Assembly: GCF_025698545.1 (NCBI RefSeq)
Contig: NC_068577.1
Span: 620,001 to 684,000 of the forward strand
Source of the DNA: Gossypium raimondii
Lineage: Eukaryota > Streptophyta > Magnoliopsida > Malvales > Malvaceae
DNA length: 64,000 nucleotides
Reading direction: 5' to 3'
The notes below the pieces were generated by a model, which saw only the letters and a list, made by a program, of their open reading frames with translations, had not been told where the DNA came from and searched no databases. A program made the translations under genes and the position numbers. Positions 6,570-64,000 of the stretch are shown one piece after another (positions within the stretch are counted from its first letter, which is position 1; each line of letters begins with the position of its first letter).

Positions 6570-6886
6570 CAAACCGAATCTACAAGCTAATGATAGAAAC
6601 ATAAACCAAAATATATAGTACATTGTTTGATTAAAATTGAAAACATGGTTCATATTTGTCCACCGTAATGTTCAGTGTTCAATAACATGCAAAAGATATA
6701 TATATATATATAGTCTAATGACGACTTCAAGTTTATCTAAGCAAATACGAATATATCACCCAAAACTTCCCACGAAACTCAAATTTAAGTACTAATAAGT
6801 TCATAAAACAAGTTAAACGAAAGATTACATCAAGGAAAAAGACAATCCGGACAAGTAACTATACCGATACTCATATTTAATCGAAC
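6570..6886 (-). other. Small-frame 5' remnant and NET4-type 3' flank
   Basis: Holds the N-terminal part of the small unknown frame (FNFNQTMYYIFWFMFLSLACRF type), a short TA microsatellite near 6693-6711, and the DNA that follows the NET4 stop codon in all copies. Confidence 0.55.
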
Positions 6887-8056
6887 TCATAAAGCGATAA
6901 ACGCTTGTCGTTTGTGCTTGAGGAATGTCTGAAGCTCTTTATAACCACTCTGTAATGGTCCGGCATCAATGTAAGTCGTCTTATTACCTCTCTTTCTCTT
7001 CGACACATCTAAGATCATGTTCCTTTGCTTATCCACTTCCTTCTCAAGGTCCTTTATCTTCAATTTCAACTCATCTTCTAGATTCTTTGTTAGTGCATAT
7101 GTTCCTTGCTTAATTGTTGTAAATGATCCTCCATTTGTCCGATCAGAAATCACGAGAACGAACCTCGGCCACGAGATTGTTTTATTCTGCATAACACAAT
7201 CTTTGTCTTTCATAAGCATATCATATTTCAATTTCATTTTGTCAAGGTTCTTATTCAAAGCTTCTATCTCAGATACCTTTCTCATTAAGTTCGGTCTTCA
7301 ATTGATTGATCGACCTTGTAAGTTGGTTTCTTGTACAGCAAGCAAGCTTTCGATAACCGGTAATGGCGACGGACAATCAATGTGAATAGCCAACTCACAA
7401 GGTGAACAACCATACAAATATCCTCTTCGTTGAGTTACTTGGCATATTTTGCAAGCACGCCGTTCACTATTAAATTGCAAAACAAGAGGATGTTTGCGAT
7501 GACACGAATGATCCATTTTGAGAGGAAGCTCAAGACACCTCTTATGCAATTTAAACCCACAATCAAGAAAGAAGTATGTATACATTGCTAATGGTTCCCA
7601 AAGACACAAAACACTTACCAGTTTCCACCATCGTTTTAGAGGAAAACGATGGATCCTCAAGGCCACATGCTCAAGCTCTTTCAAATTTCTTTCAGCAATA
7701 TTAAATGTAAACAAAGCACATTTAATATGAAAGTCCAAGCCACAAGAGCAATGGTAAATGAATTTCTCACATGCTTCATTCTGAAATCGCAAACGCACCT
7801 TGTGTCGAAGTGTAAGGTGGATTCTGCGAAGCGAGGAGAGGATGGTGGCGGTGAAAAGGATGATTAAGCTCCAAAGGTGCCTCGGCACATGTCCCGTGGA
7901 GGTAAAACCCACAAGACTCCACACAGCTAAAACATGGAGTGACACCTTCTCCCACACCTTGAGCAATCAACAACTCCATTGCCATTGCCAAGCAAGCGCT
8001 CTTCATTTAACATCAACAAGTGGATGTTGATGCCCGTAGTTCTTTAGCTCTTCCAT
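6887..8056 (-). pseudogene. DC1-NET4 chimera, copy A (apparently frame-disrupted)
   Basis: Sister of the intact fusion at 46758-47939. The 5' part (about 7355-8056) encodes the first four DC1 modules from the usual MEELKNYGHQ start. The 3' part (6887-7354) encodes the NET4 C-terminal coiled coil ending KHKRQAFIAL. As written, several frameshifts break it. Nearly all differences from copy C fall on CAG or CTG triplets, for example near 6960-6985, 7140-7205 and 7815-7835, while the rest matches base for base. The disruptions may therefore be consensus error rather than true decay. If the frame is real it would make a protein of about 390 aa. Confidence 0.75.
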
Positions 8057-8615: not shown

Positions 8616-8618
8616 ACT

Positions 8619-17191: not shown

Positions 17192-18137
17192 TCACAAAGC
17201 GATAACCGCGTGTCGTTTGTGCTTGAGGAATGTCTGAAACTCTTTATAACCACTCTGTAATGGTCCGCATCGAAAGTAAGTCGTCTTATTACCTCTCTTT
17301 TCTCTTGAGACACATCTAAGATCATGCTCCTTTGCTTATCCACTTCCTTCTCAAGGTCCTTTATCTTCAATTTCAACTCATCTTCTAGATTCTTTGTTAG
17401 CTGCATATGTTCCTTGCTTAATTGTTGTAAATGGTCCTCCATTTGTCTCGATCAGTAAATCACGAGAACGAACCTCGCCACGAGATTGTTTCTCGCTGCG
17501 ATAACACAATCTTTGTCTTTCATAAGCATATCATATTTCAATTTCATTTTGTCAAGGTTCTTATTCAAAGCTTCTATCTCAGATACCTTTCTCATTAAGT
17601 TCATCTTCAATTGATTGATCGACCTTGTAAGTTGGTTTCTTGTACAAAGAAGCAAGCTTTCGATAACTCGGTAATGGCGACACACAATCAATGTGAATAG
17701 CCAACTCACAAGGTGAACAACCATACAAATATCCTCTTCCTTGAGTTACTTGGCATATTTTGCAAGCACGCTGTTCACTATTAAATTGCAAAACAAGAGG
17801 ATGTTTGCGATGACACGAATGATCCATTTTGAGAGGAAGCTCAAGACACCTCTTATGCAATTTAAACCCACAATCAAGAAAGAAGTATGTATACATTGCT
17901 AATGGTTCCCAAACACAAAGCACTTACCGGGTTTCCACCATCGCTTTTAGAGGAAAACGATGGATCCTCAAGGGCCACATGCTCAAGCTCTTTCAAATTT
18001 CTTTCAAAGAATATTAAATGTAAACAAAGCACATTTAATATGAAAGTCCAAGCCACAAGAGCAATGGTAAATGAATTTCTCACATGCTTCGTTGCAGAAA
18101 TCGCAAACGCACCATGTGTAAGGAGTGTAAGGTGGAT
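17192..18137 (-). pseudogene. DC1-NET4 chimera, copy B, 3' part
   Basis: The 3' part of a third DC1-NET4 fusion. The NET4 tail and coiled coil lie at 17192-17660 and DC1 modules 2-4 at about 17661-18137. The gene is interrupted at 18138 by copia 2, and its 5' end continues at 23117-23356. The frame also shifts several times within 17260-18060, and these differences again fall mostly on CAG/CTG triplets. The copia insertion alone is enough to disable it. Confidence 0.85.
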
Positions 18138-18626
18138 TGTTGAAGTCAACCCCCATGCAACAGCCAAGGTGACCATGCAAGGTGGCCATGCAGGGATCGT
18201 GCTTTAACAGCAAACCGAAACTGCATTGTTTCATTTGGTTACTCAAATGAACATTTTGTATTTTAGTTTGTTTTGAACTAAGTTGGTAACTGTATTTTGA
18301 TGTAATTAGGTGCTGAATGACAAGTTTAGGTAGAAGTTTATGTTTTCAATCAAGTTTACCAAGTTACTAGGCAATTTAGTGGTGTTAGGTATGTTATTAG
18401 GTGGCAACTTGTTTGTTTTGCTGTTGTTATCTCATATATGTATTGGTATTATGGCTTGTAAAAATGTTAATGAAAATTCAGCTCATTTTCATTCAATTTC
18501 ATCTCTTTCTTTTCTGTTCTCCATTGCAAAATTTCTTTCTTCTTCTTCAATAGTTTATTCAGCAAGGCTCGACACTTGCTGTGCAAGCAAGCTGAAACCA
18601 TCTTGCTATTACCTCTTGCACCAACA
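18138..18626 (+). repeat. 5' LTR of copia 2
   Basis: 489-bp LTR with TGTTGAAG...CCAACA ends, nearly identical to 22628-23116. Confidence 0.93.
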
Positions 18627-23116: not shown

Positions 23117-23356
23117 TGGATTCTACAGAAGCAGGAGAGGATGGTGGCGATGAAAAGGATGATTAAGCTCCAAAGGTGCCTCGGCACATGTCTTGTGGAG
23201 GTAAAACCCACAGCACTCCACACAGCTAAAACATGGAGCTGACACCTTCTCCCCACACCTTGAGCAATCAACAACTCCATTGCCATTGCCAAGCAACTGC
23301 TCTTCATTTAACATCAACAGTGGATGTTGATGCTCATAGTTCTTTAGCTCTTCCAT
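23117..23356 (-). pseudogene. DC1-NET4 chimera, copy B, 5' part
   Basis: Encodes the first about 77 residues of the DC1 fusion from the standard start (MEELKNYEHQ). It is cut off from the rest of the gene by copia 2 at its 3' side. The first DC1 module is intact. Upstream, the usual DC1 promoter block is retained. Confidence 0.85.
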
Positions 23357-28174: not shown

Positions 28175-28179
28175 TCATC

Positions 28180-31617: not shown

Positions 31618-33633
31618 TCACAGCATCGCTGATTTTCTACATTTCCAATGAACAATATAGTTGCATCCTGGTTCTGCACATTCAAGAGAAAGATCTTCAC
31701 AACGCTCACCACATTCAATACATTCAGGGTAGTAAGGAAATTTCTTGACAAAAGTGAGAGGGTGTGGATGTTCTCCTTCATTGTAGATGCTCCCGAGTTT
31801 GATCAATGGATATTCTCCAAGAACGCAATCCACGTGAGCAGAAGTGTCACAAGTTTCACAATAGTAAAACCAGTTCTTTGGATCCCTTTCTTTCTCACAA
31901 ATGTCACAATAATGATATTTTGCATAATCATTAATCTTGTCATAAGTGAGTGTAAGAAGATGTTTATCGCATTTGTGTCTAACTCTAATTGGTCGCAGAA
32001 CACACCATGGGCATAAATGAATATTACAATCCTTACAACGAAAAGGGCAAACGACATCCTTCCCACAAGCACTACACTGCCCCTGATAATTATAATAGAG
32101 AAGAAGAGGGTGTTTATGCCCTGGAATTTTTACAACATCTTGGAGACTTAGAGCAAAACATCGAAGGCATATCGGACTTCCACATTCATTACATTTATAA
32201 GAAAATCCATTAGAAAGGTACATGCATAGACCACATTTGAACATGCAGGCTGAAGTAAGGATTAAGGGTTTTAATCCAGAATAAAATTCCGTTTCTCCAC
32301 AAGCATGTTTCGAAAAAAGCTTCATCTTAGGCAATTCAGCACAAGATTTATGAAGAAAGAAATCACATCGCGAGCAATGGTAGAACTTAGCGGAGATCAA
32401 TAACAAGCACCCATCACAACATTTATCACCATGCTATCTGATGTTGTCACTTAACATCAAGTAGTGCTTATGCTCGCAATGTTCTATGAGTGTGGCTTCT
32501 CCAGCATCATTCGTCTCAAGAACCTCAGTGATGGAGTTAACAGGTATATCAAGAGACTTGTCAGCTTCATTTTCCTGTGATACTATGCAATACAACTGCT
32601 CTTCTTTCAATGCACAATCCACATGTAATATAACACTGCAATCTGCACAGAAGTAACTACCGTGCTCTGTATCGACAACTTCATGGCACCATATGCAATT
32701 CAAACTTTCAAAATATTCCTTGCGAATGAAATACGTGTGAAAAACACGATGAACATGGAACGCGTGTTCGATAATGCGTGGCAATGAAATGCATTTTTTA
32801 TGTACCATAATACTGCATGTACCACATGTATAGGCAACATGATGTCCTTCAGTGCCACAAGCATCACAAATGAATGGAATTTGTCTCCAAAACAAGGTGA
32901 ATGGGTGTTGATGACTTTTATCTTCGATAACTGGTAATGGCGACGCACATTCAATGTGAATAGCCAACTCACAAGGTGAACAACCATACACAAATCCTCT
33001 TTGTTGAGTTACTTGGCACACTTTGCAAGCAAGCCGTTCACTATTAAATTGCAAAACAAGAGGATGTTTGCGATGGCACAAAAGATCCATTTTGAGAGGA
33101 AGCTCAGCACACCTCTTATGCAAATTAAACCCACAATCAAGAGAGAAGTATGTATACATTGCTAATGGTTCCCAACACCCAAAGCACTCACCCAGGTTTC
33201 CACCATCGTTTTTAGAGGAAAACGATGGATCCTCAAGGGCAACATGCTCAAGCTCTTTCAAATTACTTTCAGCAATGTTAAATGTTAACAAAGCACATTT
33301 AATATGAAAGTACAAGCCACAAGAGCAATGGTAAATGAATTTCTCACATGTTTCATCACATAAATCACAAACGCACCTTGTGTAAGAAGATGGTGGATTC
33401 TGCAAAAGCACGAGAGGATGGTGGCGATGAAAAGGATGATTAAGCTCTAAAGGTGCCTCGGCACATGTCTTGTGGAGGTAAAACCCACAGCAGTCCACAC
33501 AGCTAAAACATGGAGCTGACACCTTCTCCCCACACCTTGAGCAATCAACAACTCCATTGCCATTGCCAAGCAACTGCTCTTCATTTAACATCAACAGTGG
33601 ATGTTGATGCCCATAGTTCTTTAGCTCTTCCAT
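31618..33633 (-). pseudogene. DC1 domain gene, copy 3, with one nonsense codon
   Basis: The frame is continuous over 672 codons from the usual start to KCRKSAML, except for one in-frame TAG at 32434-32436, where copy 2 has a Glu codon (NIREHGDKCC). Both sides keep intact C1-like modules: about six before the stop and five after. The expected product is a 399-aa protein with six modules, unless the stop is read through. No splice sites suited to skip it were seen. The TTCGATAACTGG at about 32924-32935 makes this copy the one most like the DC1 donor of the fusion genes. Confidence 0.85.
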
Positions 33634-35177: not shown

Positions 35178-35370
35178 AAGCAGGGAAAGCGCTATCGAGG
35201 GCGGAACTTGAGGGTGTTCTGGTTTTTGTTGAACCTTTTTTGTTTCATGTCAATGGCACCTTATCCAATTGGCAATGGTGGGAAAACAAAGTTTGCCATT
35301 TTGATCCATTTGTAAAGGCAAGTCACTTGGCAGTGGGGGTTTCGCAGTTGAGTGGCAAGGGCTACAGATG
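35178..35370. repeat. Unclassified duplicated segment X, copy 3
   Basis: Third copy of the segment at 9581-9790 and 25641-25830. Confidence 0.7.
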
Positions 35371-36369
35371 AGGCAGGAAATACTTTTATTTATAGTTGAG
35401 TTCCGTAAATTCAACAATATAACAATATTATTACATTATCAGTTCGGATTTAATCTTATTTATAACATTGATCCCTAAAGAATTTAAATCTTCTATTATC
35501 TTATCCTTAAGATTATAAAATTACACTAGTAAAATACAAGTTACCAAAACTTCTACAAGTGCACAATGTTTCAAGTAGGATGAGCTTTCAGAATGTTTCA
35601 AAAATAGGACCAATCTCGGTGGCTTAAGTAAACCTAATTTAATCAAATGATCTCTTTTTTAAGTTGTTATGTGCACATTGGATTTTATTATAATAAAATA
35701 TAAATTAAGTCAATTATATTTCTATAATAAAAATAGATAGCGGAGAAGTTAATAAAAGAAAGAAGAATAAAAACAAAACATTATTTCTTCCTTATGGTCT
35801 TGCATGCCGAAATGGTGAGGGAAGAAAAGGGATTTTCGGCCATTGTTGTTTAAGTTTGGAAGCTCAGGTTTTGGTTCTTTTTTATTAAATTTTATATTTT
35901 TGGAACTTTAAAATCATGTAGTAGTTTATCTATGTTGAAAATTTGAGAGTTAATGATATTTGTGAAAATTATCATTGTTGAGAAATTTAAATTCTTGGTG
36001 TTATTTTGTTGATGTATGTGTGTGTTGGATGGTAGATATTGTATATGGTTGATATTTTAAGATCTATGGAATTTGGCTCTTTTTGAAGTAAATGATTGAG
36101 GTCAATTTGTTGAGTTGAAATATGTAGGATATGGCATTTGAAATTTATGATTCCTATTTGTGGAGCAAGATGAATGTATGATTTGGTTAAGGTTGAATGC
36201 CTTTGTATGTGATGTTTGAAATGTGGTGCTAATGAGGGCTATGTTGGTTAGGTTCTTAGAATGTATGAAATTGACATGTTTTGACTTGTTTTGAGGTGTA
36301 TTTGATGACATATATAGAGTGGTTATAGGTTTGGTTTGGTAGCCAGATAGGTGTGAAATTTGCCCTGTT
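35371..36369. repeat. Spacer repeat, AT-rich part, copy 3
   Basis: Matches about 25980-26990. No gene is seen. Confidence 0.6.
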
Positions 36370-36640
36370 TTGGAAGCAAAAATTGGTCCACGTGGCCTGG
36401 GGTATAGGCTGTACAAAGCCTCCTCACAAGGCCGTGTGTCTTAATGATTTTAGGTGCAGGGCATACATAGTCTAAGACACAACCAGCGACCAACAAATGC
36501 ACATACGGGCAGTCACACGGCCATGTGACCTTAATTTGAATATACACACGGGCGAACACACAGTCGTGTGTCTGACTTTGAATGTCCACACGGTCTGGGT
36601 TGTTACATACAACCGTGTGTCCCTTATTTTTCAAAATTTT
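36370..36640. repeat. ACACGG/CCGTGT palindrome-rich repeat, copy 3
   Basis: Third copy of the palindrome-rich stretch, somewhat shorter than the others. Confidence 0.5.
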
Positions 36641-38180
36641 CATCTTTTTTCTAACTTTTCCATTTTGTTTCAAATTGACCTCAGAATATTTCTAATTTAT
36701 TTTTAGGGTCCCGTAAACTCAGTTTAAGGCCTGTAAGTGTATGTTTATTGTGAATTGATTGTGATTTGATTAATTTTAATTATATTGAATAATTGCTTTT
36801 AAGTAGTGTTAAATGTTTGAAATGTTATCGTAATACTCTGTGACTTCAATTCGACGACAGGCACTCTTTAGGGGCGTTAAGTTTAAATTGTCTTTTATAA
36901 ATTTTATATAAATGCATGAAAAATACAAAAAGAAACACTCTATAATAATATTTATTAATCATTAAAACTTAGTTTTTTAATACTTTTCTTGATCGAGTTA
37001 GTGTCGAGTTAACCAATGATACAGTCTAAATTCATGACTCCAATTCAATCATACACTTGAATAATAATATAAATGTTATTGTTTATGAGAAGATCAAAAT
37101 ATCAATGTTGAATCCGAAAATGAAAACAACGGTTAAGATTTGAAATATAAGTAGAGATGGTAATGGAGTGGGGCGGAATGGTTTTTTGTCCACCCGAACT
37201 GATATACCTCTAACATAATCCGATTTTGATCCAACTCAAAATTAAATATTAATTTACTTATCTTGAACCTGACTCGAAAAATCAAAGTTATACCCTATTT
37301 CGATCGATATACCAATACTTTTAATTGTTCTTATATTTTTTATTAAAATAGAATAATAGTTTTAAAGTTTTTAATGATAAAATTACTTTTTTTGGTAGTT
37401 ATAGTTATGGTAGGGAAAATATTTTTATAATTATCATATATTATAATCTAATATTATATATAAATGGTTATTTTGGTAATTACGGGCAAATTTTTCTAAA
37501 TCGGAGAAAGAATTGTATGAAATTGTGATTCCACATTATCTCGTATCATTTTCTAATACGAAAATGACAAATCGAATTTAAGATTAAATCCATGTACTTT
37601 AAAAGTTAAAATTTCAATTATTCTACTTCTACGATTTAAAAATTCAATTCAATTATTATAATTTGTAATTTTTGTCAAAAATTTAACTTAACATCATATG
37701 AAATGTTATATGATAGCAGTCTAATCAACATGCCAAATTGGAATATTTTGATGGAAATTATTAACAATGTTAAAGACTGGAATGAAATTTTAAATTAGAA
37801 AAGTAAGATAACTAAATTGAAATTTTAGCTAAGTCAAAGGGACTAACAACATATTTTCACAAAAGAAATTGATAGACTAATTTAGGTTTTAGACTAAGCA
37901 AAATTTTCATTTCCAACTATATTCAACTTGTATAAATATGGGAGCTAGCATATAAGGATAATAACTTTTCATGGAATCTAAGGACAAAAAATAATTAACA
38001 TACTAGCATGTAAGAAAAAGAAGAAATAAGCAAATCATATTAATTTTATTATCATATATTTACAGTTCAAACCTCACAATTTTCAACCTTAAAACATTAC
38101 ATTGATTAAACAGACAACTAAAAAGTATCAAGCTTTAAGAACAACCACATACTTTTTTTGTGAAACTGAAGCCGCAATTT
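36641..38180. other. AT-rich spacer and DC1 3' flank
   Basis: No gene is seen. It holds the empty site (about 37535) for the insert at 28180-30930 and, from about 37970, the 3' flank of a DC1 gene. Confidence 0.6.
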
Positions 38181-38342
38181 TCAGCACCTACCACGGATTG
38201 TTGATTTTCTGCATTCCCAATGAGCAATATACTTGCATTCTGGTTCTGCACATTCAAGAAAAAGATCTTCACAAGGTTTACCACATTTAACACATTCAGG
38301 GTAGTAAGGAAATTTCTTGACAAAAGTGAGAGAGTGTGGATG
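38181..38342 (-). pseudogene. Severed 3' end of DC1 copy 4
   Basis: Encodes the last C1-like module (YYPECVKCGKPCEDLFLEC and HWECRKSTIRGRC). It was separated from the rest of its gene (43361-45228) by copia 3. The GGATG duplication at 38338-38342 and 43361-43365 proves that the two parts were contiguous. Confidence 0.9.
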
Positions 38343-38843
38343 TGTTGAAAGCTGGACTGCAAAGCAACATGTGGCCAGCAGCATGGTTGGCTATTGAGCT
38401 TGGTGATATTGCTTGGCGTGCAAGACTGAAGCTGAACCAGATGAAGCAATCAACTTTGGATGTTTTGTTCTTTTGTAATTTAGTTTAGTTCAACTTTAAC
38501 TAGTTTCCAAAGTTAGTTGGATTAAGTTTGTGATTGGATTGATGATGTAAAAGTCGATATGTCGACTTATTTTGTATTTGACTTAAGCTTGTATTAGTTT
38601 AGTTTAAGTGGGAGCAGTTATGTCATTAGGTAATCTGTCAAATGAATCAAATTTGTAACTCTTTTATATGTTCAAATTTTGAATGAAAATAGGTAATGTT
38701 CGTTACAATTTCTTTGAGTATTCAATTTTTGTTCACTGTTTTTGCTTTGCTTTGTTTTTCTTTTGCTTCGATACTTCTTGCTTCAGTTTTGCAAATTTTG
38801 TTTTGCAACCTTGTTTTCTTTTGCTGCTGCCATTGTTCCAACA
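38343..38843 (+). repeat. 5' LTR of copia 3
   Basis: 501-bp LTR, TGTTGAAAGC...TTCCAACA, paired with 42861-43360. Confidence 0.92.
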
Positions 38844-41800
38844 AATGGTATCATGAGCCCGAGTCTTTGAGGGGCCTTTGTATGCAATCTGTTGTGTTCA
38901 AATCAAAACCAACAGCAAGTTCAAAATTTGGTAAGATCGAAGCATCTGGATTCAGTCTTGCAGGATGAGTTTCACTCCACCACCTCTATCTGTGTTCACT
39001 GGAGAAAACTATCACATTTGGATAGTTAAAATGAAGACTTACCTTCAGGCACATGATCTCTGGAGTGTGATCGAGAATGATACTGAACCATCTCCATTGA
39101 GAGCCAATCCCACTATTGCACAGATGAGGCAACATGCTGAGGAACGAGCTAAGAAGCACAAGGCTATGGCCTGTCTGCAGAGTGGAGTGTCTGATGTGAT
39201 ATTCACACGCATCATGGCATGTGACACACCTAAGCAGGCCTGGGACAAGCTGAAGGAGGAGTTCATGGGGACTGACAAGACAAGGCAACAGCAGGTGATC
39301 AACCTCAGGAGAGACTTTGAAAATTTGAAGATGAGGGAGTCTGAGACCATCAAGCAGTACTCAGACAGGATAATGGCCATTGTCAACAGCATTAGGCTCC
39401 TGGGAGTGGACTTCACAGAGAGCAGAGTTGTTGAAAAAGTCATTACAACTCTCCCTGAGAAATTTGAGTCAAAAATCTCTTCACTTGAGGACTCGAGGAT
39501 TTATCACCATTTCATTGTCTCGAGTGATAAACTCCCTGTATGCACTTGAACAAAGGAGGGCAAATAGGCGGAGGAGAATCTGAAGCGCCTTCCGTGCTAA
39601 AGCCGTGAAGGCTCGAGTGTGAGTGCAAAAGGCAAGAAGCCTTGGCACAACAAAAGGGTCAAGTCGGAAGAGATGAAGCAAAAGGGTGTTCCCACCATGT
39701 GTTCATTGCAAGAAGACAACACATTCTGAAAAGTATTGCTTGGTTCAGGCGGATATTCATGTAGAAAGTGTAAGCGGTTTGGCCATGTGGAGAAGGTGTG
39801 CAAGGGCAAACCAAGGGAGGCCGCTCTGCAACAAGCTAGACTCACTGAGGACATTCAAGCTCGGGAGGAGCATGTGTTCACAAAGAACTTGTTTTGTTGG
39901 CACAACCAAGGCCAAGAATGATTGGCTACTAGACGGTGGTTGCTCACACCATATGGTCGCATATGAGAAGTCGCTCAAGGGCCTAGATAGAAGCTTCCAC
40001 TCGAGGATTAGAATTGGAGATGGCAGGCTGATTGAGGCTAAAGGCAAGGGCAATGTGTTGATTAGCACTGGTTCAGGTAATAAGCTGATCTCAGATGTGT
40101 TTTTTGTACCTGACTTAGACCAGAATCTGCTTAGTGTTGGCCAATTAGTTGAAAAGGGCTATACATTGGTTTTTAAGGATGGTTGCTGTATTGTTCAAGA
40201 CATGAATGGTCTGGAGATAGTCACTGTCTCTATGACTGATAGGTGCTTCATGCTGGATGTTAGCAAAATAGAAAGAAAGGCATACACCAGCCTTGTTGAA
40301 AGAACTGACTTGTGGCATAGGAGACTAGGCCATGCAAATTTCAGATCCATCGATCTACTACATAGGCTGAATTTGGTTGATGACATTTCAAAAATTGAAG
40401 TTAGTGGGAATGTTTGTGAAGTTTGTCAGCTTGGTAAGGTGCTAGATCGCTTTTTCTCACGACAAGGCTTGGAGAGCTCGAAACAAGCTCGAATTGGTGC
40501 ACTCGATGTTTGTGGCCCTATGAGAACACTTTCAATCGGTGAGAACAGTACTTTGCCTGCTTATAGATGATTTAACAAGGTTGTCTGGGTCTACTTCTTG
40601 AAGCAAAAGTCAAGTGTTTGAGGCCTTCGCAAATTCAAGGCATATCTTGAAAATCGGTCAGTCGCAAAATTAGAGCCTTGAGGATGATAATGGCTCAATA
40701 TGTGTCGAGAGATTTGAAGCTTTGTGATAGTGCTTGAATTCACCATCACTCACAATGATCTATACTCCTCAATGAATGGAGTCTGTGAGAGGAAAAATAG
40801 GATCGTGCTAAATATGGCTAGGTGTCTATTATTTCAAGGCAAGCTTCCAAGCCGGTTTGAGGCAAGGCGGTCAACACCTCAGAGTATCTGCTCAATAGAC
40901 CGCCAACTCGAGCGATGGGGATGAAACACCTTTTGAGGCTTGGCATGGAGTCAAACCTATGGTAACACATTTAAAAGTGTTTGGTCAGATATGTTATGCT
41001 CTTATTCCAGTAGAGAAGAGGACCAAGCTCGAGAGCAGGGCTACTCCAGGAATCTTTGTTGGCTACAGCAGCAACAAGAAGGGTTATAGAGTGTATGATC
41101 CTACAGCAAAGAAGGTCTTAGTCAGCAGGGATGTAAAGTTTGATGAAGAAAAAGTGTGGAATTGGAATGGTGTTGAAGCTGACATGTCTGAAATGGACCA
41201 GATGGACTTGGTTGATGAACCTATAGAAGAGGGACCAAGTGAAGATGCTGTAGATGACATACCAGTGAGGGGCACCAGGACTTTGGCTGATATCTATCAG
41301 AGGTGCAATGTTGCTGTGATTGAGCCCTCAGACTTTGAAGAGGTCGCCAAGATGTAAGTCGGATGAAAGCTATGGAAGATGAGTTAGAAATGATCAACAA
41401 AAATCAGACTTGGGAGTTGGTGAGCAGACCAGAACACAAGAAGGTCATTGGAGTTAAATGGGTGTACCGGGCCAAGTACAATGCTGATGGCTCACTGAAC
41501 AAGCACAAGGCCAGGCTTGTGGTGAAGGGCTACAGTCAGCAGTATGGTGTGGACTACTTGGAGACTTTTGCTCCAGTGGCAAGACTGGATACAATTAAGC
41601 TGTTGTTTGCTTTAGCAGCTCAGAAATAGTGGAAAGTTCACCAATTGGATGTCAAATCAGCATTCCTAAATGGTTTTCTCAAGGAGGAGATCTTCATTGA
41701 GCAACATGTAGGTTTTGAAGTTGCTGGGCATGAAGACAAAGTGTACAAGTTAAGAAAGGCCCTCTATGGCCTGAAACAGGCACCAAGGGCCTGGTATGAC

Positions 41801-42860
41801 AGAGTTGATGCTTATCTGACCAAGCTTGGATTTGTGAAGAGCCTTAGTGAACCTACTCTGTATGTTAAGAGGTCAGAATTTGAAACCTTGCTGATTGTCT
41901 CCTTGTATGTGGATGACTTGTTAGTGACAGGGAGCAAAGTTGAGCTCATTGATGAGTTCAAGGTCCAAATGCAGCAAGTGTTTGAGATGACAGACTTGGG
42001 GATTATGACTTACTTCCTTGGCATGGAAGTTCACCAGTCTGATCGAGGTATTTTCATCAGCCAACACTCATTTGCTTTGAAGATCCTAGACAAATTTTGC
42101 ATGCATAATCAGAAGCGCCAAGACACCTGTGGCTCAAGGTGAAAATTGACCAAAGAATGGTGATCAGCAAAGGGTTGATGAGAGGCATTATCGAAGCCTA
42201 GTAGGTTGCTTGTTGTATCTAACAGCAACTAGGCCAGACATTATGTTTGGTGTTAGTCTGCTATCAAGGTTCATGCATTGCTGTAATGAGGCGCATTTGA
42301 AGGCTGCCAAAAGGGTTCTTAGATACATCAAAGGCACAGCTAACTTTGGTGTAATGTTTGGAAGAGGGAAGGAACTGAAATTAGAAGGTTACTCTGATAG
42401 TGATTGGGCAGGATCCCTCGATGACATGAAGAGTACCTCTGGATACTTCTTCACACTTGGATCGGGCATGTTTTGCTGGAGTTCAAAGAAGCAACAAACT
42501 GTTGCTCAGTCCACAGCTGAAGCAGAGTACATTGCAGCTGCAGCAGCAGTCAATCAGGCCATTTGGCTCAGGAAATTGCTTCAGGACCTTAATGAAACAC
42601 AAGCTGAAGCAACTGAAATTTGGGTGGACAATCAATCAGCAGTTGCTATAGCTAAGAACCCTGTGTTTCATGGGAAAACTAAACATTTTAAGATAAAGTT
42701 ACACTTTGTTCGAGAGGCTGAACAAACTAAAGAGATCAGCCTTGTTCATTGTAGCTCAGGGGCACAATTAGCTGATATGCTGACTAAGCCCTTAGGAGCT
42801 GCTAGGTTTGATGTATTGAGAAATGGAATTGGTATGTGTTGCTTACAGTCCAAGGAGGAG

Positions 42861-43360
42861 TGTTGAAAGCTGGACTGCAAAGCAACATGTGGCCAGCAGC
42901 ATGGTTGGCTATTGAGCTTGGTGATATTGCTTGGCGTGCAAGACTGAAGCTGAACCAGATGAAGCAATCAACTTTGGATGTTTTGTTCTTTTGTAATTTA
43001 GTTTAGTTCAACTTTAACTAGTTTCCAAAGTTAGTTGGATTAAGTTTGTGATTGGATTGATGATGTAAAAGCTGATATGTCAGCTTATTTTGTATTTGAC
43101 TTAAGCTTGTATTAGTTTAGTTTAAGTGGGAGCAGTTATGTCATTAGGTAACTGTCAAATGAATCAAATTTGTAACTCTTTTATATATTCAAATTTTGAA
43201 TGAAAATAGGTAATGTTCAGTTACAATTTGCTGAGTATTCAATTTTTGTTCACTGTTTTTGCTTTGCTTTGTTTTTCTTTTGCTTCGATACTTCTTGCTT
43301 CAGTTTTGCAAATTTTGTTTTGCAACCTTGTTTTCTTTTGCTGCTGCCATTGTTCCAACA
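42861..43360 (+). repeat. 3' LTR of copia 3
   Basis: 500-bp LTR. Its outer 60 bases supply the altered C-terminus of the DC1 copy 4 frame. Confidence 0.92.
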
Positions 43361-45228
43361 GGATGGTTTCCCTCATTGTAGGTGCTCCCGAGTTTGATGA
43401 ATCGATATTTTCCAAGAACGCAATCCACGTGAGCAGAAGTGTCACAAGTTTCACAATGATAAAACCAGTTCTTTGAATCCCTTTCCTCCTCACAAATGTC
43501 ACAATAATGATATTTTGTATAATCATTAATCTTGTGATAAGTGAGGTTAAGAGGATGATCATCGCAATTGTGTCCGACTCTAGTTGGTCGCATAACACAA
43601 TTAAGGCATAAACCAAAGTTACAATCCTTACAACGATATGTGTTACTGAGATCCGTCCCACAACCACTACACTGCTTTTCAAAATTATAATAATCATAAT
43701 AGAAAAGAAGAAGGTGTTTATGCCCTGGAATTTTTACAGCATAAGGGAGAGTTGCACATCGAACGCAACTGTGAATTCCACATTCATTACATTTATAAGA
43801 AAACCCATTAGAAAGGTACGTGCATTGCTCACATTCGAACATGCAGTCTGAAGTAAGGATGAAGGGTTTTGATCCAGAAAAAGGCTTTCCAACACAACGA
43901 TGATCCCAAATAAGGTCCATCTTAGGTAATTCAGCACAAGATTTATGAAGAAAGAAATCACACCGCAAGCAATGGTAGAACTTAGCGGAGATCAATAACA
44001 GGCACCCATCACAACATTTATCACCATGCTCGCTGATTTTGTCACTTAACATCAAGTAGTGCTTATGCTTGCAATGTTCTATGAGTGTGGCTTCTCCAGC
44101 ATCATTCGTCTCAAGAAACTTAGTGATGGAGTTAACAGGTATATCAAGAGACTTGTCATCTTCATTTTCCTGTGATACTATGCAATACCACTCCTTTTCT
44201 TTTAATGCACAATTCACATGGAATATAACATTACAATCTGCACAGAAGTAACTACCGTGCTCTGTATCGACAACTTCATGGCACCGTATGCAATTCAAAC
44301 TTTCAGAATATTCCTTGTGAATGAAATACGTGTGAAAAACACGATGGACATGGAACACGTGTTGGATAATGCTTGGCAATGAAATGCATTTTTTATGGAC
44401 CATAATACTGCATGTACAACATGCATAGGCAACATGATGTCCTTCGGTGCCACAAGCATCACAAATGAATGGAATTTGTCTCCAAAACAAGGTGAATGGG
44501 TGTTGATGACTTTTATCTTCAATAACTGGTAATGGCGATAAACAATCAATATGAATAGCCAAATTACAAGTTGAGCAACCATACAGAAAGCCTCTTTGTT
44601 GGGTTACTTGGCATATCTTGCAAGAAAGCTGTTCACTATTAAATTGCAGAAGAAGAGGATGTTTGCGATGGCACACATGACCCATTTTGGCAGGAAGCTC
44701 AGCACATTTCTTATGCAAATTAAACCCACAATCAAGAGAGAAGTATGTATAAATTGCTAATGGTTCCCAACACGCAAAGCACTTACCCAGGTTTCCACCA
44801 TCGTTCTTAGAGGAAAACGATGGATCCTCAAGGGCCACATGCTCAAGCTCTTTCAAATTTCTTTCAGCAATATTAAATGTAAACAAAGCACATTTAATAT
44901 GAAAGTTCAAGCCACAAGAGCAATGGTAAATGAATTTCTCACATGTTTCATCACAGAAATCGCAAACGCACCTTGTGTAAGAAGATGGTGGATTCTGCAA
45001 AAGCAGGAGAGGATGGTGGCGATGAAAAGGATGATTAAGCTCCAAAGGTGCCTGGGCACACGTCTTGTGGAGGTAAAACCCACTGCACTCCACACAGCTA
45101 AAACATGGAGCTGACACCTTCTCCCCACACCTTGAGCAATCAACAACTCCATTGCCATTGCCAAGCAACTGCTCTTCATTTAACATCAACAGTGGATGTT
45201 GATGCCCGTAGTTCTTTAGCTCTTCCAT
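43300..45228 (-). CDS. DC1 domain protein, copy 4, C-terminus replaced by LTR
   Basis: 642-aa frame from the usual DC1 start. Residues 1 to about 622 are DC1 sequence with about ten C1-like modules. The last about 20 residues (after NEGNHP) are read from the antisense strand of the copia 3 LTR and end VAKQNLQN. The final DC1 module is cut off and lies at 38181-38342. The first about 475 residues are nearly identical to copy 1 (204-2204). The remainder matches the 12171-12846 fragment type instead, so the gene is a mosaic. All module Cys/His positions before the insertion look intact. The protein may still fold; whether it is expressed cannot be told. Confidence 0.85.
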   Translation of the reverse strand: MEELKNYGHQHPLLMLNEEQLLGNGNGVVDCSRCGEKVSAPCFSCVECSGFYLHKTCAQAPLELNHPFHRHHPLLLLQNPPSSYTRCVCDFCDETCEKFIYHCSCGLNFHIKCALFTFNIAERNLKELEHVALEDPSFSSKNDGGNLGKCFACWEPLAIYTYFSLDCGFNLHKKCAELPAKMGHVCHRKHPLLLQFNSEQLSCKICQVTQQRGFLYGCSTCNLAIHIDCLSPLPVIEDKSHQHPFTLFWRQIPFICDACGTEGHHVAYACCTCSIMVHKKCISLPSIIQHVFHVHRVFHTYFIHKEYSESLNCIRCHEVVDTEHGSYFCADCNVIFHVNCALKEKEWYCIVSQENEDDKSLDIPVNSITKFLETNDAGEATLIEHCKHKHYLMLSDKISEHGDKCCDGCLLLISAKFYHCLRCDFFLHKSCAELPKMDLIWDHRCVGKPFSGSKPFILTSDCMFECEQCTYLSNGFSYKCNECGIHSCVRCATLPYAVKIPGHKHLLLFYYDYYNFEKQCSGCGTDLSNTYRCKDCNFGLCLNCVMRPTRVGHNCDDHPLNLTYHKINDYTKYHYCDICEEERDSKNWFYHCETCDTSAHVDCVLGKYRFIKLGSTYNEGNHPVGTMAAAKENKVAKQNLQN

Positions 45229-45683: not shown

Positions 45684-46555
45684 TTAATTTATTCTGGTGA
45701 TTAGAATAAAAAAAATTTGAACAAAGCTAGATAGATTAATTATACAATTACCGAGCCACCAATCGGCTCTCTTAGGATAATCTGCTACAGAAATTACTCT
45801 TAACTCCCTTGGTATTTGCTCAACCACTTCAATCCCAATGGGGTCATCGTTCATTAAACTAACCATATAATTAGATGTGAATGAGACATCTTTATTATAG
45901 GAATGATCCACATTCGCTGTCCTGCAGTACAAACTGTTGGAACACTGGCAGCAACAACCAAACAATGAAACACTAAGAGCATAAGCTCTTCAAACAGCAA
46001 GCAGAAACACAAAGCATCAAGAGCATAAGCTCTCGGTTAACAGGCAGAAAAAAGAAAAAGAAAGAACAATGGCAGCAGCTCTTAGAAAAAGAACAAAACA
46101 GAGAACAAAGGAGGAAGAAACAAAAATAATTTACTTGCTCACAAACGTGCAGCAAGGAAGCAATCTAAGTTTCACAACTGATATGCTTAATTTTTCAATA
46201 AGAAAAACAATACATTTATAGCCAACCACATCAGTTATTACTACCTAATACCACTAAGTAGCCTAGTAACTTTAAAAACATTGCTTGTACACATGGATAA
46301 GCTGACTTATCAGCTCAACCAACCCATCAAAACATCAACATCAAAGTTCATTCTCAACCAAACTAAATTACAGAATCATCATAGTACCATGCATTTTAAC
46401 AAAAACATAATAGCAGCATGGTTGGCCATTTTTAACACAAACTGAATCTACAAGCTAATGATAGAAACATAAACCAAAATATATAGTACATTGTTTGATT
46501 AAAATTGAAAACATGGTTCATATTTGTCCACTGTAATGTTCAGGTGTTCAATAAC
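45684..46555 (-). pseudogene. Small unknown frame, split by solo LTR
   Basis: The C-terminal part (VNVDHSYNKDV onward) lies at 45684-45934 and the N-terminal part at 46438-46555, with a solo LTR between them. The first Met codon seen in other copies is also changed. Not functional in this form. Confidence 0.6.
45935..46437 (-). mobile_element. Solo LTR of a copia-type element (right block)
   Basis: 503 bp, TGTTGGAAC...TTTAACA, with CAAAC duplicated at 45930-45934 and 46438-46442. The empty site is visible at about 16870-16890 and 34325-34340. It is the sister of 6084-6569. Confidence 0.9.
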
Positions 46556-46757: not shown

Positions 46758-47939
46758 TCATAAAGCGATAAACGCTTGTCGTTTGTGCTTGAGGAATGTC
46801 TGAAGCTCTTTATAACCACTCCTGTAATGGTCCAGACTGAATGTAAGCTGTCTTATTACCTCTCTTTTCTCTTCTGACACATCTAAGATCATGTTCCTTT
46901 GCTTATCCACTTCCTTCTCAAGGTCCTTTATCTTCAATTTCAACTCATCTTCTAGATTCTTTGTTAGCTGCATATGTTCCTTGCTTAATTGTTGTAAATG
47001 GTCCTCCATTTGTCTGATCTGTAAATCACGAGAACGAACCTCGGCCACGAGATTGTTTACTGTTGCAGTAACACAATCTTTGTCTTTCATAAGCATATCA
47101 TATTTCAATTTCATTTTGTCAAGGTTCTTATTCAAAGCTTCTATCTGTATACCTTTCTCATTAAGTTCTGTCTTCAATTGATTGATCTGACCTTGTAAGT
47201 TGGTTTCTTGTACAGCAAGCAAGCTTTCGATAACTGGTAATGGCGACAGACAATCAATGTGAATAGCCAACTCACAAGGTGAACAACCATACAAATATCC
47301 TCTTCCTTGAGTTACTTGGCATATTTTGCAAGCACGCCGTTCACTATTAAATTGCAAAACAAGAGGATGTTTGCGATGACACGAATGATCCATTTTGAGA
47401 GGAAGCTCAGCACACCTCTTATGCAATTTAAACCCACAATCAAGAAAGAAGTATGTATACATTGCTAATGGTTCCCAGCACACAAAACACTTACCCAGGT
47501 TTCCACCATCGTTTTTAGAGGAAAACGATGGATCCTCAAGGGCCACATGCTCAAGCTCTTTCAAATTTCTTTCAGCAATATTAAATGTAAACAAAGCACA
47601 TTTAATATGAAAGTCCAAGCCACAAGAGCAATGGTAAATGAATTTCTCACATGCTTCGTTACAGAAATCGCAAACGCACCTTGTGTAAGGAGTGTAAGGT
47701 GGATTCTGCAGAAGCAGGAGAGGATGGTGGCGATGAAAAGGATGATTAAGCTCCAAAGGTGCCTCGGCACATTTCTTGTGGAGGTAAAACCCACAGCACT
47801 CCACACAGCCAAAACATGGAGCTGACACCTTCTCCCCACACCTTGAGCAATCAACAACTCCATTGCCATTGCCAAGCAACTGCTCTTCATTTAACATCAA
47901 CAGTGGATGTTGATGCCCATAGTTCTTTAGCTCTTCCAT
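46758..47939 (-). CDS. DC1-NET4 fusion protein (intact chimera, copy C)
   Basis: 393-aa open frame. Residues 1-238 are four DC1 modules (two full pairs near 8-60 and 67-120, then 143-190 and 192-236), starting MEELKNYGHQ like the neighbouring DC1 genes. Residues 236-393 match the C-terminal coiled coil of the NET4-like gene next door, ending KHKRQAFIAL. The NET4 IRQ motif is kept (EVIRQL, residues 360-365). The join lies in VIE at residues 236-238, where the 6-base TTCGAT (47226-47231) is common to both parents in the same reading frame. The NET4 actin-binding (NAB) domain is absent. The DC1 promoter block is upstream. In NET4 proteins the IRQ region is reported to bind RABG3-type vacuolar GTPases, so a DC1 module set tethered towards the tonoplast is a plausible inference. 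Expression is not known. Confidence 0.88.
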   Translation of the reverse strand: MEELKNYGHQHPLLMLNEEQLLGNGNGVVDCSRCGEKVSAPCFGCVECCGFYLHKKCAEAPLELNHPFHRHHPLLLLQNPPYTPYTRCVCDFCNEACEKFIYHCSCGLDFHIKCALFTFNIAERNLKELEHVALEDPSFSSKNDGGNLGKCFVCWEPLAMYTYFFLDCGFKLHKRCAELPLKMDHSCHRKHPLVLQFNSERRACKICQVTQGRGYLYGCSPCELAIHIDCLSPLPVIESLLAVQETNLQGQINQLKTELNEKGIQIEALNKNLDKMKLKYDMLMKDKDCVTATVNNLVAEVRSRDLQIRQMEDHLQQLSKEHMQLTKNLEDELKLKIKDLEKEVDKQRNMILDVSEEKREVIRQLTFSLDHYRSGYKELQTFLKHKRQAFIAL

Positions 47940-48420
47940 TTCTCCTTCCTCTCTGTCTCTTTCGATGTGGTAGAGAAAGAAAAATTGAAATTGAATAACT
48001 CAAAGAAAGCAGAAAATTAGAAGGGGGAGATTCCAAATGTTAATTGGTAGGAGTCTCTTTGAACTTGCTATGGTACTTTGCTTCAACGGTGGGTTGCCTT
48101 TACCTATATATGTTTCTTCTTTATAATTACTGTGAATGGGATGCAATGGGTTTGAGTGTATGCTAAGTACATTATCAATTTTTTTTCCTTTATTCTTTGC
48201 TTTGTGGATTAGATAATGAATATTGATGGCGAAAGTGTTCTGATATTGTTTGTGTAAAAAAATAAGATAATATGATGAAGGTATTTTGACAGGTTACGAA
48301 TTTTTCAATTGAGAATGATATCAAACAATCAAATTATTCTAAAAAAATTGAATTAAATCATTTATCTAATCGAAAATTAAAAACCTATTTAATTTATTCT
48401 GGTGATTAGAATAGAAAAAT
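47940..48420 (-). promoter_or_regulatory. 5' UTR and promoter of fusion gene C
   Basis: Conserved DC1 upstream block, with the TATA-like CTATATATG near 48103-48111, slightly rearranged near 48215-48240. Inferred. Confidence 0.4.
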
Positions 48421-48443
48421 TTGAACAAAGCTAGATAGATTAA

Positions 48444-48635
48444 TTATACAATTACCGACCCACCAATCGGCTCTCTTAGGAATGAGAATGAGACATCTTT
48501 ATTATAGGAATGATCCACATTCACTGTCCTGCAGTACAAACTGAATCTACAAGCTAACGATAGAAACATAAACCAAAATATATAGTACATTGTTTGATTA
48601 AAATTGAAAACATGGTTCATATTTGTCCATTGCAA
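48444..48635 (-). CDS. Small unknown frame, truncated copy
   Basis: A 63-aa frame that keeps the N-terminus MQWTNMNHVFNF through VNVDHSYNKDVSF and then changes frame after an internal loss relative to 16648-16974. Family unknown, probably not functional. Confidence 0.3.
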   Translation of the reverse strand: MQWTNMNHVFNFNQTMYYIFWFMFLSLACRFSLYCRTVNVDHSYNKDVSFSFLREPIGGSVIV

Positions 48636-48858: not shown

Positions 48859-50736
48859 TCATAAAGCGATAACCGCTTGTCGTTTGTGCTTGAGGAATGT
48901 CTGAAGCTCTTTATAACCACTCCTGTAATGGTCCAGACTGAATGTAAGCTGTCTTATTACCTCTCTTTTCTCTTCTGACACATCTAAGATCATGTTCCTT
49001 TGCTTATCCACTTCCTTCTCAAGGTCCTTTATCTTCAATTTCAACTCATCTTCTAGATTCTTTGTTAGCTGCATATGTTCCTTGCTTAATTGTTGTAAAT
49101 GGTCCTCCATTTGTCTGATCTGTAAATCACGAGAACGAACCTCGGCCACGAGATTGTTTACTGTTGCAGTAACACAATCTTTGTCTGTCATAAGCATATC
49201 ATATTTCAATTTCATTTTGTCAAGGTTCTTATTCAAAGCTTCTATGTGTATACCTTTCTCATTAAGTTCTGTCTTCAATTGATTGATCTGACCTTGTAAA
49301 TTGGTTTCTTGTACAACAAGCAAGCTTTCGATTTCCGAATTTTTGGTCTCACGTTGCCTTATTTTTTCCTCCAATACACTTCCATGTAATTCCCATTCCT
49401 TGAGTCTTGCTTCTAAGAGAGTCTCTTTTTCTAACAAACCAAAAATTTCTGATTGAAAGCTTGCTTTCTGTATAGAGAAATTATCTCTAGCATCACATAA
49501 TGCACCCTTTAGTTCTTCAACTTCGTGACCTCGGTTCAATAGATCGTTTTCGTACCTCAAATTTTGTGCATTTAACATTACAATCTCTTCTTCTGATGCT
49601 TTGATATTTTCTTTACTTGTAGAAAGCTCCTCCATCAACCTCATAACTTCAGAGTTCGAGTTTGAAAAACAAGCTTCGAGCTCAATTATCTGTTTTTGCA
49701 ATTCCAATTCGAGTGACTCACTCTTCTTGAGCTTTGTATTCAACTTCACAATTTCTTCTTCTGCAAGTAAGAGTTTTAGGTTCGAATCCCTTAACTCTTC
49801 TTCATACCTAGTGAGCTTTTCATTCAATTCTTCATACCTTCGGTTTTCCCTCATCTTCGATTTATCAGTATCCATCGCCGAACTCAAGTAAACGTTGACA
49901 GATGAGATGAAAGATTCAGAGTCAGAATCTGATGAAAACGAAGACGATTCGGTCCCTTCTTTCTCAGAACTACCACCAACAGAACTGAAAGATGAAGCTT
50001 GTTGAACAGGCTTATCAGGTGTAACCATTGGAGAGATTTGATCCAAACCACTATCAGGGCCTTGAGTTTTACGCAGTTCCCCAGTCAAATGATCATACCG
50101 CTCGGCCAAATTTCGATAAATACGGTAGAGTTCTTGAACTTGGACAATCACCTTGGATTTAGTCACATCTTCACTGTTGTCTTCCACCAATTTCACTATT
50201 TGTTTAACATTCAGGTCCATTTCTGCAAGTCAAGAATCATTTTATCATTTACAAGATGCCAACAAGAATCCATAACAACAAGAATGGTGAAACATGGTAA
50301 AAGTACCAAGACCCCTAGGAGTCAATTTGCAATTTGCCCTTTTTACTCAAAAAATAGGTAAATTAGTCCATATACATTAGATTAAAAAACAAATTGATCC
50401 TTTTCGTGCCACGTCTTCCTCATGGAGGATCATATTTTAATAGTAAAAATAGATGATATTTTTAACAAAAGGATCAGTTTACTTTTTTTATCTAATATGC
50501 AAAAATTAATTTATCCATTTTTCCAATAGAAAGGACAAAATGCAATCTAACTCGTGGTACAAAAGCCTCCATTATACTTTTACCTGTAAAACATAAATGC
50601 AAGAACTTCAAAAGTTAATTGTTTTACCTTTTGAATTTTCAGCTAGCCATTCAGAATTTTCAGGATTGAGATGACTATCCCACCAACATGATTTCAAGTT
50701 CTTTGAATCAACTTTGTTCATCATATCTACTTCCAT
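48859..50736 (-). CDS. NET4: NETWORKED 4-like actin-binding protein (two exons)
   Basis: Exon 1 is 50628-50736 and exon 2 is 48859-50222. The intron has GT at 50626-50627 and AG at 50223-50224, and it joins AENSK to EMDLNVKQ in frame. The product is 490 aa. The NAB (KIP1-like) actin-binding domain spans about residues 17-87, with the signature CWWDSHLNPENSEWLAENSK and the ending LAERYDHLTGELR. A Ser-rich linker (about 105-155) follows, then a long coiled coil (about 160-455) and the IRQ motif (I459-Q461) near the C-terminus. NET4 proteins link actin filaments to the vacuolar membrane. The intron and the complete NAB domain mark this as the parent of the fragments and fusions to its left. The length is slightly below that of the Arabidopsis proteins. 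Confidence 0.93.
50223..50627 (-). other. Intron of the NET4-like gene
   Basis: 405-base GT-AG intron after codon 36. Its position right after the WLAENSK motif of the NAB domain agrees with the family. Confidence 0.85.
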
Positions 50737-52260
50737 TTTTTGTCTTCAAAACAATATAAACATCTTTGTATAAGATTTCCCAAAAATAAACTCAGGGAAG
50801 AACAATTCCAAAAGATGATAGATTAATTATGTTCTTGGTGTCACATTATTGAAACAACAAACACATCTGATAAACCATAAAATGCCTCGATAAGGAAGAA
50901 AAACGCAAGTTGGCACCTTAGAAACTTCGAAACATTATAGCAATAACACTCCATAAAAACAACCATGCTCAATAAGAGAGTAAAATCAAAATAACAACGA
51001 AAATAAAAAATCGAGCACACTCCTTAGCATCGCACCTTAAATGCAAGATCATACCTTAACGTAGACAACATAGAAACTCCGAAACATTATAGCAAGAATA
51101 CTCCGTAAAAACAACCAAGCTCAATAATAGAGTAAAAACAAAATAACAACGAGCACTCCTTAGCATCACACCTTAAATGTAAGATCATCCCTTAACATAG
51201 ACAACCTAGAAACTCCGAAACATTGTAGCAAAAATACTCCATGAAAACAAAAGAAGAACAAAAATTAGAAATCAAGCACACTCCTTAGCATCACACCTTA
51301 AATGTAAGATCATACCTTAACATAGACAACCTAAAAACTCCAAAAAATTGTAGCAAGAATACTCCATAAAAACAAAAGAACGACGAAAATTAAAAATCGA
51401 GCACACTCGTTAGCATCACAAAACATCAGATCCTGTATTCTTTTTCGCAACACTAAAAGGAAATTGCAGAATGCAGACAATACAGTACAGATGCTTGAGC
51501 TGACCATAGCCCACGGTATATAAACATGAACAAAAAGCTCAAGGGTTTAGAAGAAAACACCCCCACAATAGTAAATTAGAAACCCAACAAGCAATCTAAA
51601 TTACAAACTTAAATTTTCGTAGAAAAAAAAAAGGCTATAAAGGATTTGTATATAGCTACTTCAATTTAAGATAAGGTGAAAACTTAGAACCTCGTAGAAG
51701 ATTTGTACTGACGATTGATGATTATACTTTAGCTTAAAGGAAACGATTATAAACCCCAACAAACAAGTATGGCCTTTATCATTTTGTTCATAAACAGAAA
51801 AGAAATCTAAGAGAAACCCAGTTTTTGTTTCAGCATTCTCTATATTAACTTCCATAAAAATCGATCGAAGTAACTCAAATACCATGAAATCTAAACTACA
51901 ATTAGAAAGAAAAACGAAAACTAATAAGTGTATCATATAGGGAATAGATACCTTAGTGAAAAGAATGAAAGTAAGAGCAGAGCAGAGCAAAAGTGAAAGA
52001 TAGGCTTAGAACATAGCTTTTGAATAAATTTTGAGAGAATTATAATTATAAAGAAACAAATAAATAAGATAAAATGGAGAAAGAGGACAAGGAGATGAAG
52101 GGTGTGAGAGGGAACAAAGGCTATTGAAATTGAAAATTGAAAGGCAAGCGAGTTTGGACTTTTCTTATTTTCCTTTTCTTCACTTTTCAAATTTCCCTCT
52201 TCTTTTCCTTTCCTTTCACTCTCTCTTTCATCCCCAAATTTCAAAACTTTGACTATAATT
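50737..52260 (-). other. NET4 upstream region
   Basis: No separate gene is seen. It holds the minisatellite at 50916-51424 and, at about 52150-52235, a stretch that is GA-rich on the minus strand and could be leader or promoter. The transcription start is not visible. Confidence 0.5.
50916..51424. repeat. Minisatellite upstream of NET4
   Basis: About four tandem units of roughly 124-135 bases. Each contains CTCCTTAGCATC, CACCTTAAATG and GAAACTCCGAAACATT. Units differ by small changes and internal length. Confidence 0.85.
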
Positions 52261-63395: not shown

Positions 63396-64000
63396 ATGAC
63401 CATGAAGACGAATGTCAGCAGCTACTTTCAAATGATCACACTTTTGATTCTCCTCCTCATTCCATCGTCATACCTTGTTGACGCTGAAATCATAGATTAT
63501 CCATCATTTGTTAATGGCCCGAATTCATGGAGAAACACTCCTTCATCCGACTTTAGTTTCTGGGAATCAGCCGGTGTGAGGCCGATCCTTGTTAATGGGA
63601 AGTTTGTCTTTGGTTTCCAATGCAGCTTTGAGGGTGACAACTGCCTAATTGTTGTCTCCATCTTCAAGACCAGTTCTGATGGCAATTCTAGATTTTCTCC
63701 ACAAGTGGTATGGGCCGCTAATCGGAACAATCCAGTTGAGATTCAAGCACTGTTGGAGCTTACTTCTCAAGGCCAACTTATCTTGAAAGATGCTAATGAT
63801 ACTTTGGTTTGGTCCCCAAGCACTGCAAGCAAGTCCATTTCAAGGTTAACCCTGGGTTCTGAGGGAAACCTCAAGTTGTTAGACAAAACCAACCTCACGG
63901 TTTGGCAGTCATTTGACCACCCTACGGATGTTTTAGTTCTTGGTCAAAAGTTAGCATCAGGGCAGAAGTTGAGGTCAAGTGTATCGCCATTCGATTCTAG
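63396..64000 (+). CDS. G-type lectin S-receptor-like protein kinase, 5' part
   Basis: The open frame runs off the right edge, with about 201 codons visible. It starts MTMKTNVSSYFQMITLLILL, where a hydrophobic signal peptide ends near residue 30 (LVDA). A second in-frame Met lies two codons later at 63402. A bulb-type (B-)lectin domain follows, with the marks VVWAANRNNPV, LTSQGQLILKD, LGSEGNLKLLD and VWQSFDHPTDVLVLGQKL. Family members carry S-locus glycoprotein, PAN, membrane and kinase parts further on; none is in the window, so a secreted lectin without a kinase (EP1 type) is possible. No intron is seen so far. Confidence 0.88.
   Translation, partial: MTMKTNVSSYFQMITLLILLLIPSSYLVDAEIIDYPSFVNGPNSWRNTPSSDFSFWESAGVRPILVNGKFVFGFQCSFEGDNCLIVVSIFKTSSDGNSRFSPQVVWAANRNNPVEIQALLELTSQGQLILKDANDTLVWSPSTASKSISRLTLGSEGNLKLLDKTNLTVWQSFDHPTDVLVLGQKLASGQKLRSSVSPFDS

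Follow-up and report, generated by a model that had tools for sequence, protein, structure and literature searches.

The fusion gene and its neighbours

The DNA analysed here (the window) is a stretch of 64,000 nucleotides of Gossypium raimondii (NC_068577.1, positions 620,001 to 684,000) with a tandem array of DC1 genes and genes related to NET4 (NETWORKED family 4). On the minus strand, positions 46758..47939 hold F3, a single open frame without introns that runs from ATG to TGA over 393 amino acids. Its DC1-derived part (residues 1-236; 47232..47939, minus strand) consists of four C1_2 stretches, its NET4-derived part (residues 239-393 and the stop codon; 46758..47225, minus strand) of a coiled coil and the IRQ tail, and between them residues 237-238 (47226..47231, minus strand) are encoded by 6 bp, ATCGAA, common to a D3-type DC1 gene and to NET4. 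F3 keeps a 5' flank homologous to those of the DC1 genes (47940..48481, minus strand) and the NET4 3' flank.

In a Pfam search with a threshold of E 0.1, C1_2 (PF03107) was matched in all four stretches of F3 (73.7 bits against a cut-off of 26; whole-protein E 1.4e-20), C1_1 fell just short of its cut-off (26.0 versus 26.5 bits), the matches to FapA, PHD, Filament and MIF4G_like_2 were all weak and below cut-off, and no KIP1/NAB match was found up to E 0.1. In an alignment with D1-D4, the window's four DC1 genes, F3 keeps all 38 of their Cys/His columns. Over the final 155 residues, 4 changes separate it from N4, the NET4-like gene next to it, of which 1 lies within the last 47 residues, and the EVIRQL motif is kept; the IRQ tail is compared here with N4 of the same window. 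The preliminary description of this DNA had read the locus as an open 393-codon frame that joins four DC1 modules to the NET4 coil and IRQ motif, without the NAB domain and beside a NET4 gene, and that reading holds.

The 13 matches of the fusion to solved structures up to E 1 are weak, the best one (E 0.00077) being a PDI-like hypothetical Arabidopsis protein. In the AlphaFold model of the fusion, built with 7 sequences from the window, mean pLDDT is 47 and the coil is the sole usable part, the tail forming helices at residues 234-349 and 356-392; the DC1 half, with pLDDT below 50 for residues 1-245, is unusable.

The fusion is flanked on both sides by genes of the parental types on the same strand, the gene order being D4-F3-N4 here and D1-F1-N1 around a second copy; the D3-N3 block is without a fusion. 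N4 (48859..50736, minus strand; 490 aa) is NET4-like, with an exon 2 at 48859-50222 and an exon 1 at 50628-50736, which, like its splice sites, is predicted from GT-AG borders; with this exon spliced on, KIP1/NAB is matched at 50.1 bits (cut-off 33.9). D4 (43300..45228, minus strand; 642 aa) contains 9 C1_2 stretches at E 0.1, and its C-terminus is cut by a copia-type element; at E 0.001, D1 has 7 such stretches and D2 has 6. D3 (31618..33633, minus strand), the DC1 gene closest in sequence to the head of the fusion, has an in-frame stop that leaves ORFs of 399 and 262 aa in the same reading frame. The copia-type element at 38342-43370 has LTRs that are 97.5% alike and an RVT_2 match in 41645-42139, and the D4 frame now ends in its LTR sequence.

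The junction and its three copies

At the junction, the DC1 genes read ...CCAGTTAT(C/T)GAAGAT..., the NET4 copies ...GAAATCGAAAGC... and F3 ...CCAGTTATCGAAAGC...; D3 alone of the window's DC1 genes has all six letters of ATCGAA. The break point falls, on the DC1 side, directly 3' of the strongest C1_2 match in the fusion (residues 187-230) and, on the NET4 side, inside the NET4 coil. Where further modules continue in the DC1 genes of the window, the fusion has the coiled coil and IRQ tail instead.

The fusion is not single, a point missed in the preliminary description: self-comparison revealed the identical junction three times, at 7349-7354 (F1), 17659-17664 (F2) and 47226-47231 (F3). F1 (6886..8056, minus strand) has a frame disturbed mostly at CAG/CTG sites. 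F2 consists of a 3' portion (17197..18138, minus strand) and a 5' coding portion (23117..23356, minus strand) that has been split off by a copia-type element, E2 (about 18139-23116), with LTRs 99.2% alike and a 1015-aa open gag-pol frame of the copia type. When 2 mismatches were allowed, a pattern of 20 bases for the junction matched F1, F3 and also D3, which is not a fusion, and missed F2, which has an additional base at this place. Patterns run against non-plant collections were uninformative on distribution in plants: a 23-base junction pattern gave 0 matches in a bacterial and archaeal contig collection, and a peptide pattern matched 7 stretches in viral contigs, with no relative among them. 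Downstream of F3 lies a solo-LTR-like insertion (45937..46440, strand unassigned) with a 5-bp target duplication, CAAAC, which has a copy 3' of F1 at 6086-6572; F2, N4, N3 and N1 have an empty site at this position.

Divergence of the two halves and history of the copies

For the divergence counts, events of the CAG/CTG type and indels were masked in F1, F2 and N1, which removes about 13% (F1) and 6% (F2) of the codons of the DC1 part and 15-21% of the tail codons in F1, F2 and N1. In the DC1 part thus masked, F3 differs from F1 at 7 of 618 bases and from F2 at 7 of 669, and the fusion copies differ from one another by 1.0-1.5%. The closest DC1 relative of the F3 head in the window is D3 (37/708 bases, 5.2%; dS 0.077) rather than the neighbouring D4 (dS 0.153), D1, D2 and D4 all showing 47-48 differences and dS of 0.14-0.15; the DC1 gene that lies nearest is thus not the best donor. 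In the tree of the DC1 part, the three fusion copies split from the four DC1 genes with a support of 98. The F3 tail differs from N4 at 5 of 465 bases (dS 0.012), so that the head is farther from any DC1 gene of the window than the tail is from N4. Given this mismatch, the present neighbours D4 and N4 do not suffice as sources of both halves, and simple duplication from them was rejected, the head being closer to D3; gene conversion or a lost donor could possibly lie behind the unequal closeness.

The tree of the tail places F2 with the NET4 copies (support 31 for N3-F2, 71 for N3-F2-N1 and 90 with N4 added), and in the tree of the 3' flank the N copies and F2 are grouped with a support of 98, apart from F1 and F3. 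At one position, tail offset 86, all three fusion copies agree against all three N copies; at 11 positions F2 sides with a NET4 copy rather than with F1 and F3, and 10 of these lie from offset 389 on, several of them at CAG/CTG. In a history with a single fusion, this grouping requires gene conversion or a second event. We read it as replacement of the end of F2 by gene conversion; a second fusion that arose separately at precisely this base would be possible, though less simple.

The array is a mosaic, since the 5' flank of F3 is 6.5-7.7% from each of the four DC1 flanks (about 505 bases compared) and those of F1 and F2 are near that of D2 (1.5 and 1.4%). The simplest history compatible with the sequences would comprise one fusion, after which F2 split from the lineage of F1 and F3, and duplication of the D-F-N block at a later time, as suggested by the solo-LTR-like insertion that only F1 and F3 have and by the near-identity of D1 and D4, with 1 difference in the 708 bases compared.

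Lesions of F1 and F2

As assembled, the frames of F1 and F2 are closed. Difference events touching CAG or CTG were counted and compared with the random expectation, given here in brackets. They comprise 35 of 63 events (8.2) in F1 and 28 of 68 (8.4) in F2, both relative to F3, and 18 of 34 (4.7) in N1 relative to N4. By contrast, counts were near random for F3-N4 (2/11; 1.3), N3-N4 (3/24; 2.8), D1-D2 (16/115; 11.8), D3-D2 (21/172; 17.9), D4-D2 (12/104; 10.8), D1-D4 (9/52; 6.0), F3-D2 (6/61; 5.5) and F3-D3 (3/53; 4.1). When F1 and F3 were recounted in both directions, 34 of the 63 events fell at CAG/CTG of F3 and 5 at those of F1 itself. The recount also revealed an unexpected mild excess at the F3 sites in F3-N3 (7/25; 3.4) and F3-N4 (4/11; 1.5), as well as in unit U3-U2 (15 and 14 of 141; 9.4 and 7.3), unit U1-U2 (12/116; 6.5) and, in one direction, the E3 LTR pair (4/7; 1.5). 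In the other LTR pairs the counts were 5/9 (0.8) for E1 and 1/4 (0.5) for E2, and the 5' piece of F2 had merely 6/31 relative to F3 (3.5) and 7/21 relative to D2 (2.0). Viewed along the window, departures from sister copies that are largely CAG/CTG, with many indels, form islands at 5593-9585, 16875-18138 and 23117-23868.

Within the ORF, with the ends trimmed, CAG/CTG accounts for 23 of 33 events in F1 and 18 of 30 in F2, and none of the 23 or of the 18 is a pure C-to-T or G-to-A change (2 of 18 in N1). Frame-changing events lie at CAG/CTG in 12 of 16 cases in F1 and 10 of 11 in F2; the 4 others in F1 include 3 in base runs, and F2 has 1 such event. F2 also has a CAG read as TAG beside a 6-bp duplication. 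At offsets 61, 163, 208, 216, 353 and 382 of the NET4 part, departures from the common reading vary from copy to copy, and at offsets 43, 83 and 409 they are alike.

Errors of nanopore consensus sequences have been reported to cluster at 5mC in CC(A/T)GG, the Dcm analogue of the present case, which accounted for about 70% with the ONT callers then current (PMC6591954); among the matches listed in our literature search there was no paper that demonstrates such errors at plant CHG sites. We consider it likely that the CAG/CTG departures of F1, F2 and N1 are nanopore miscalls at CHG-methylated cytosines, to which uneven polishing of near-identical repeats may add. F1 may then be really open, and F3, which lacks the pattern at the places affected in F1 and F2, may be free of CHG methylation; F2 is broken irrespective of CAG/CTG, the inserted element alone being enough.

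Selection and age

Pairwise dN/dS was tried as a measure of selection and abandoned, the substitutions being too few to show it. The tails of F3 and N4 are separated by 5 changes, 4 of which alter the amino acid (dN/dS 0.92); dN/dS is 0.50-0.74 between the fusion copies and D3 and, for the DC1 part, 0.48-0.62 among the fusion copies (7-9 changes) and 0.29-0.44 among the DC1 genes. Some 3.7% of random point changes, with transitions weighted, create a stop, and if 0.08-0.15 indels are assumed for each substitution, the probability that a neutral frame remains open after 10 substitutions is 0.18-0.34. The open frame accordingly does not prove use and, at the age of F3, is weak evidence for function.

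Alternative explanations

Perhaps the most serious rival, to which we assign a little less than an even chance, is that F3 is a real fusion but a neutral side effect of turnover in the tandem array, unexpressed or devoid of a role and too young to have decayed. The truncated genes and copia-type insertions of the cluster are compatible with such a history, as are the fairly frequent survival of an open frame by chance at this age and the higher dN/dS of the DC1 part among the fusion copies than among the DC1 genes. Nevertheless, the complete set of Cys/His columns in F3, the retention of several fusion copies and the absence from F3 of the CAG/CTG pattern of F1 and F2 are not readily accommodated. 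A related, more doubtful scenario views F1 and F2 as true pseudogenes and F3 as all that is left of a declining family: neither of the two is open as assembled, F2 is split by an element and carries a TAG beside a duplication, and a minority of the frame-changing events (4 of 16 in F1, 1 of 11 in F2) lies off CAG/CTG. Genuine decay, however, sits poorly with the concentration of ORF events at CAG/CTG, with the lack of pure C-to-T or G-to-A changes among these and with the differences between copies at some identical sites.

That the F3 junction arose through mis-joining in the assembly, a doubt raised at the outset, is conceivable in a repetitive region in which copies as close as D1 and D4 could be mis-joined, but it is now very improbable. 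The identical junction is common to three copies, on which ground this explanation was rejected and the doubt mostly answered; moreover, the surroundings of these copies differ, E2 splitting F2, E1 adjoining F1 and the solo-LTR-like insertion being present at F1 and F3 only.

Origin and possible function

In the reading that we favour, at a probability of about 0.5, F3 is a young chimeric gene that arose by rearrangement in the DC1/NET4 tandem array, and its protein, if made, would be a RABG3 binder without a link to actin. The join and the 6 bp shared across it are observed; the mechanism would be a rearrangement through these 6 bp that connected a D3-type gene, in the linker following its DC1 module 4, in frame with the final exon of NET4. 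The fused unit would then have been copied along with its surroundings, yielding the three copies that are observed. F3 is likely to be transcribed in the DC1 pattern because it keeps a DC1-type 5' flank; of the DC1 promoter previously proposed, about 500 bp of such a flank are indeed present, but, since this flank differs by 6.5-7.7% from that of every DC1 gene, DC1-like expression is an assumption.

Residues 464-511 of NET4B have been reported to bind active RABG3a, NAB not being needed, and recruitment to the tonoplast to require the IRQ domain (PMC10511709), in agreement with the earlier statement that IRQ regions bind RABG3. The fusion shares with NET4A and NET4B the coiled coil and the C-terminal IRQ tail, the position mapped as RABG3-binding in NET4B, and differs from them in lacking NAB/KIP1, four DC1 modules standing in place of about 335 N-terminal NET4 residues. 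The protein is assumed to dimerise through the NET4 coil; its IRQ tail would, by analogy with the NET4B mapping, bind GTP-RABG3 and carry the zinc modules to the tonoplast or late endosome without a NAB link to actin. Conceivably, such an actin-uncoupled RABG3 binder would compete with NET4 or re-target partners of DC1. With plant DC1 (C1_2, CHP/CHR) proteins, such as VLG, the fusion shares the C1_2 stretches, the 38 Cys/His columns, the DC1-type 5' flank and the intronless frame; VLG has been placed at the PVC/MVB (PMC9301471) or at the membrane of the vacuole (PMC10707348). Since other DC1 proteins have been reported in the nucleus, cytoplasm or cell membrane, DC1 modules do not generally have a vacuolar role. 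The fullest form of the proposal appears unlikely: a new family of RABG3 binders in which F1 has an open frame in the living plant, F2 had one before its element inserted, F3 is expressed and the protein brings its DC1 modules to the tonoplast and, competing with NET4 but lacking NAB, uncouples RABG3 from actin.

Chimeras formed in tandem arrays are of a known kind. In Drosophila yakuba, tandem duplication has been reported to combine likewise the 5' part of one gene with the 3' part of a same-strand neighbour, the new gene lying between them (PMC5460883); in comparison with those chimeras, the plant array bears signs of later gene conversion, and the best DC1 donor is not a present neighbour. 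The 2014 paper on NET evolution describes domain architecture as consistent inside each clade (PMC4046492). Among the matches listed in our search of open-access papers, we found no description of a DC1-NET4 protein, the one cotton paper with both 'DC1 domain' and 'networked' naming separate genes in a table. If F3 is expressed, it would represent a natural domain swap that parts the RABG3-binding half of NET4 from the actin-binding half and so tests the role of each. The locus also shows that a plant tandem array has generated and multiplied a new domain architecture, and so recently that the join and its relatives are still directly legible, and the CAG/CTG pattern serves as a warning that the frameshifts of 'pseudogenes' in such arrays can be artefacts.

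Other features of the window

An LTR element at 2914-6063 has LTRs that are 95.6% alike. A third array unit of ~2-3 kb recurs at 9820-12331, 25985-28180 and 35368-38342, and two of its ORFs gave no Pfam match. Direct repeats with an offset of about 150 bp occupy 50919-51420, immediately upstream of the NET4-like gene, and a partial B_lectin (D-mannose binding lectin) gene at 63321-63998 runs to the end of the window.
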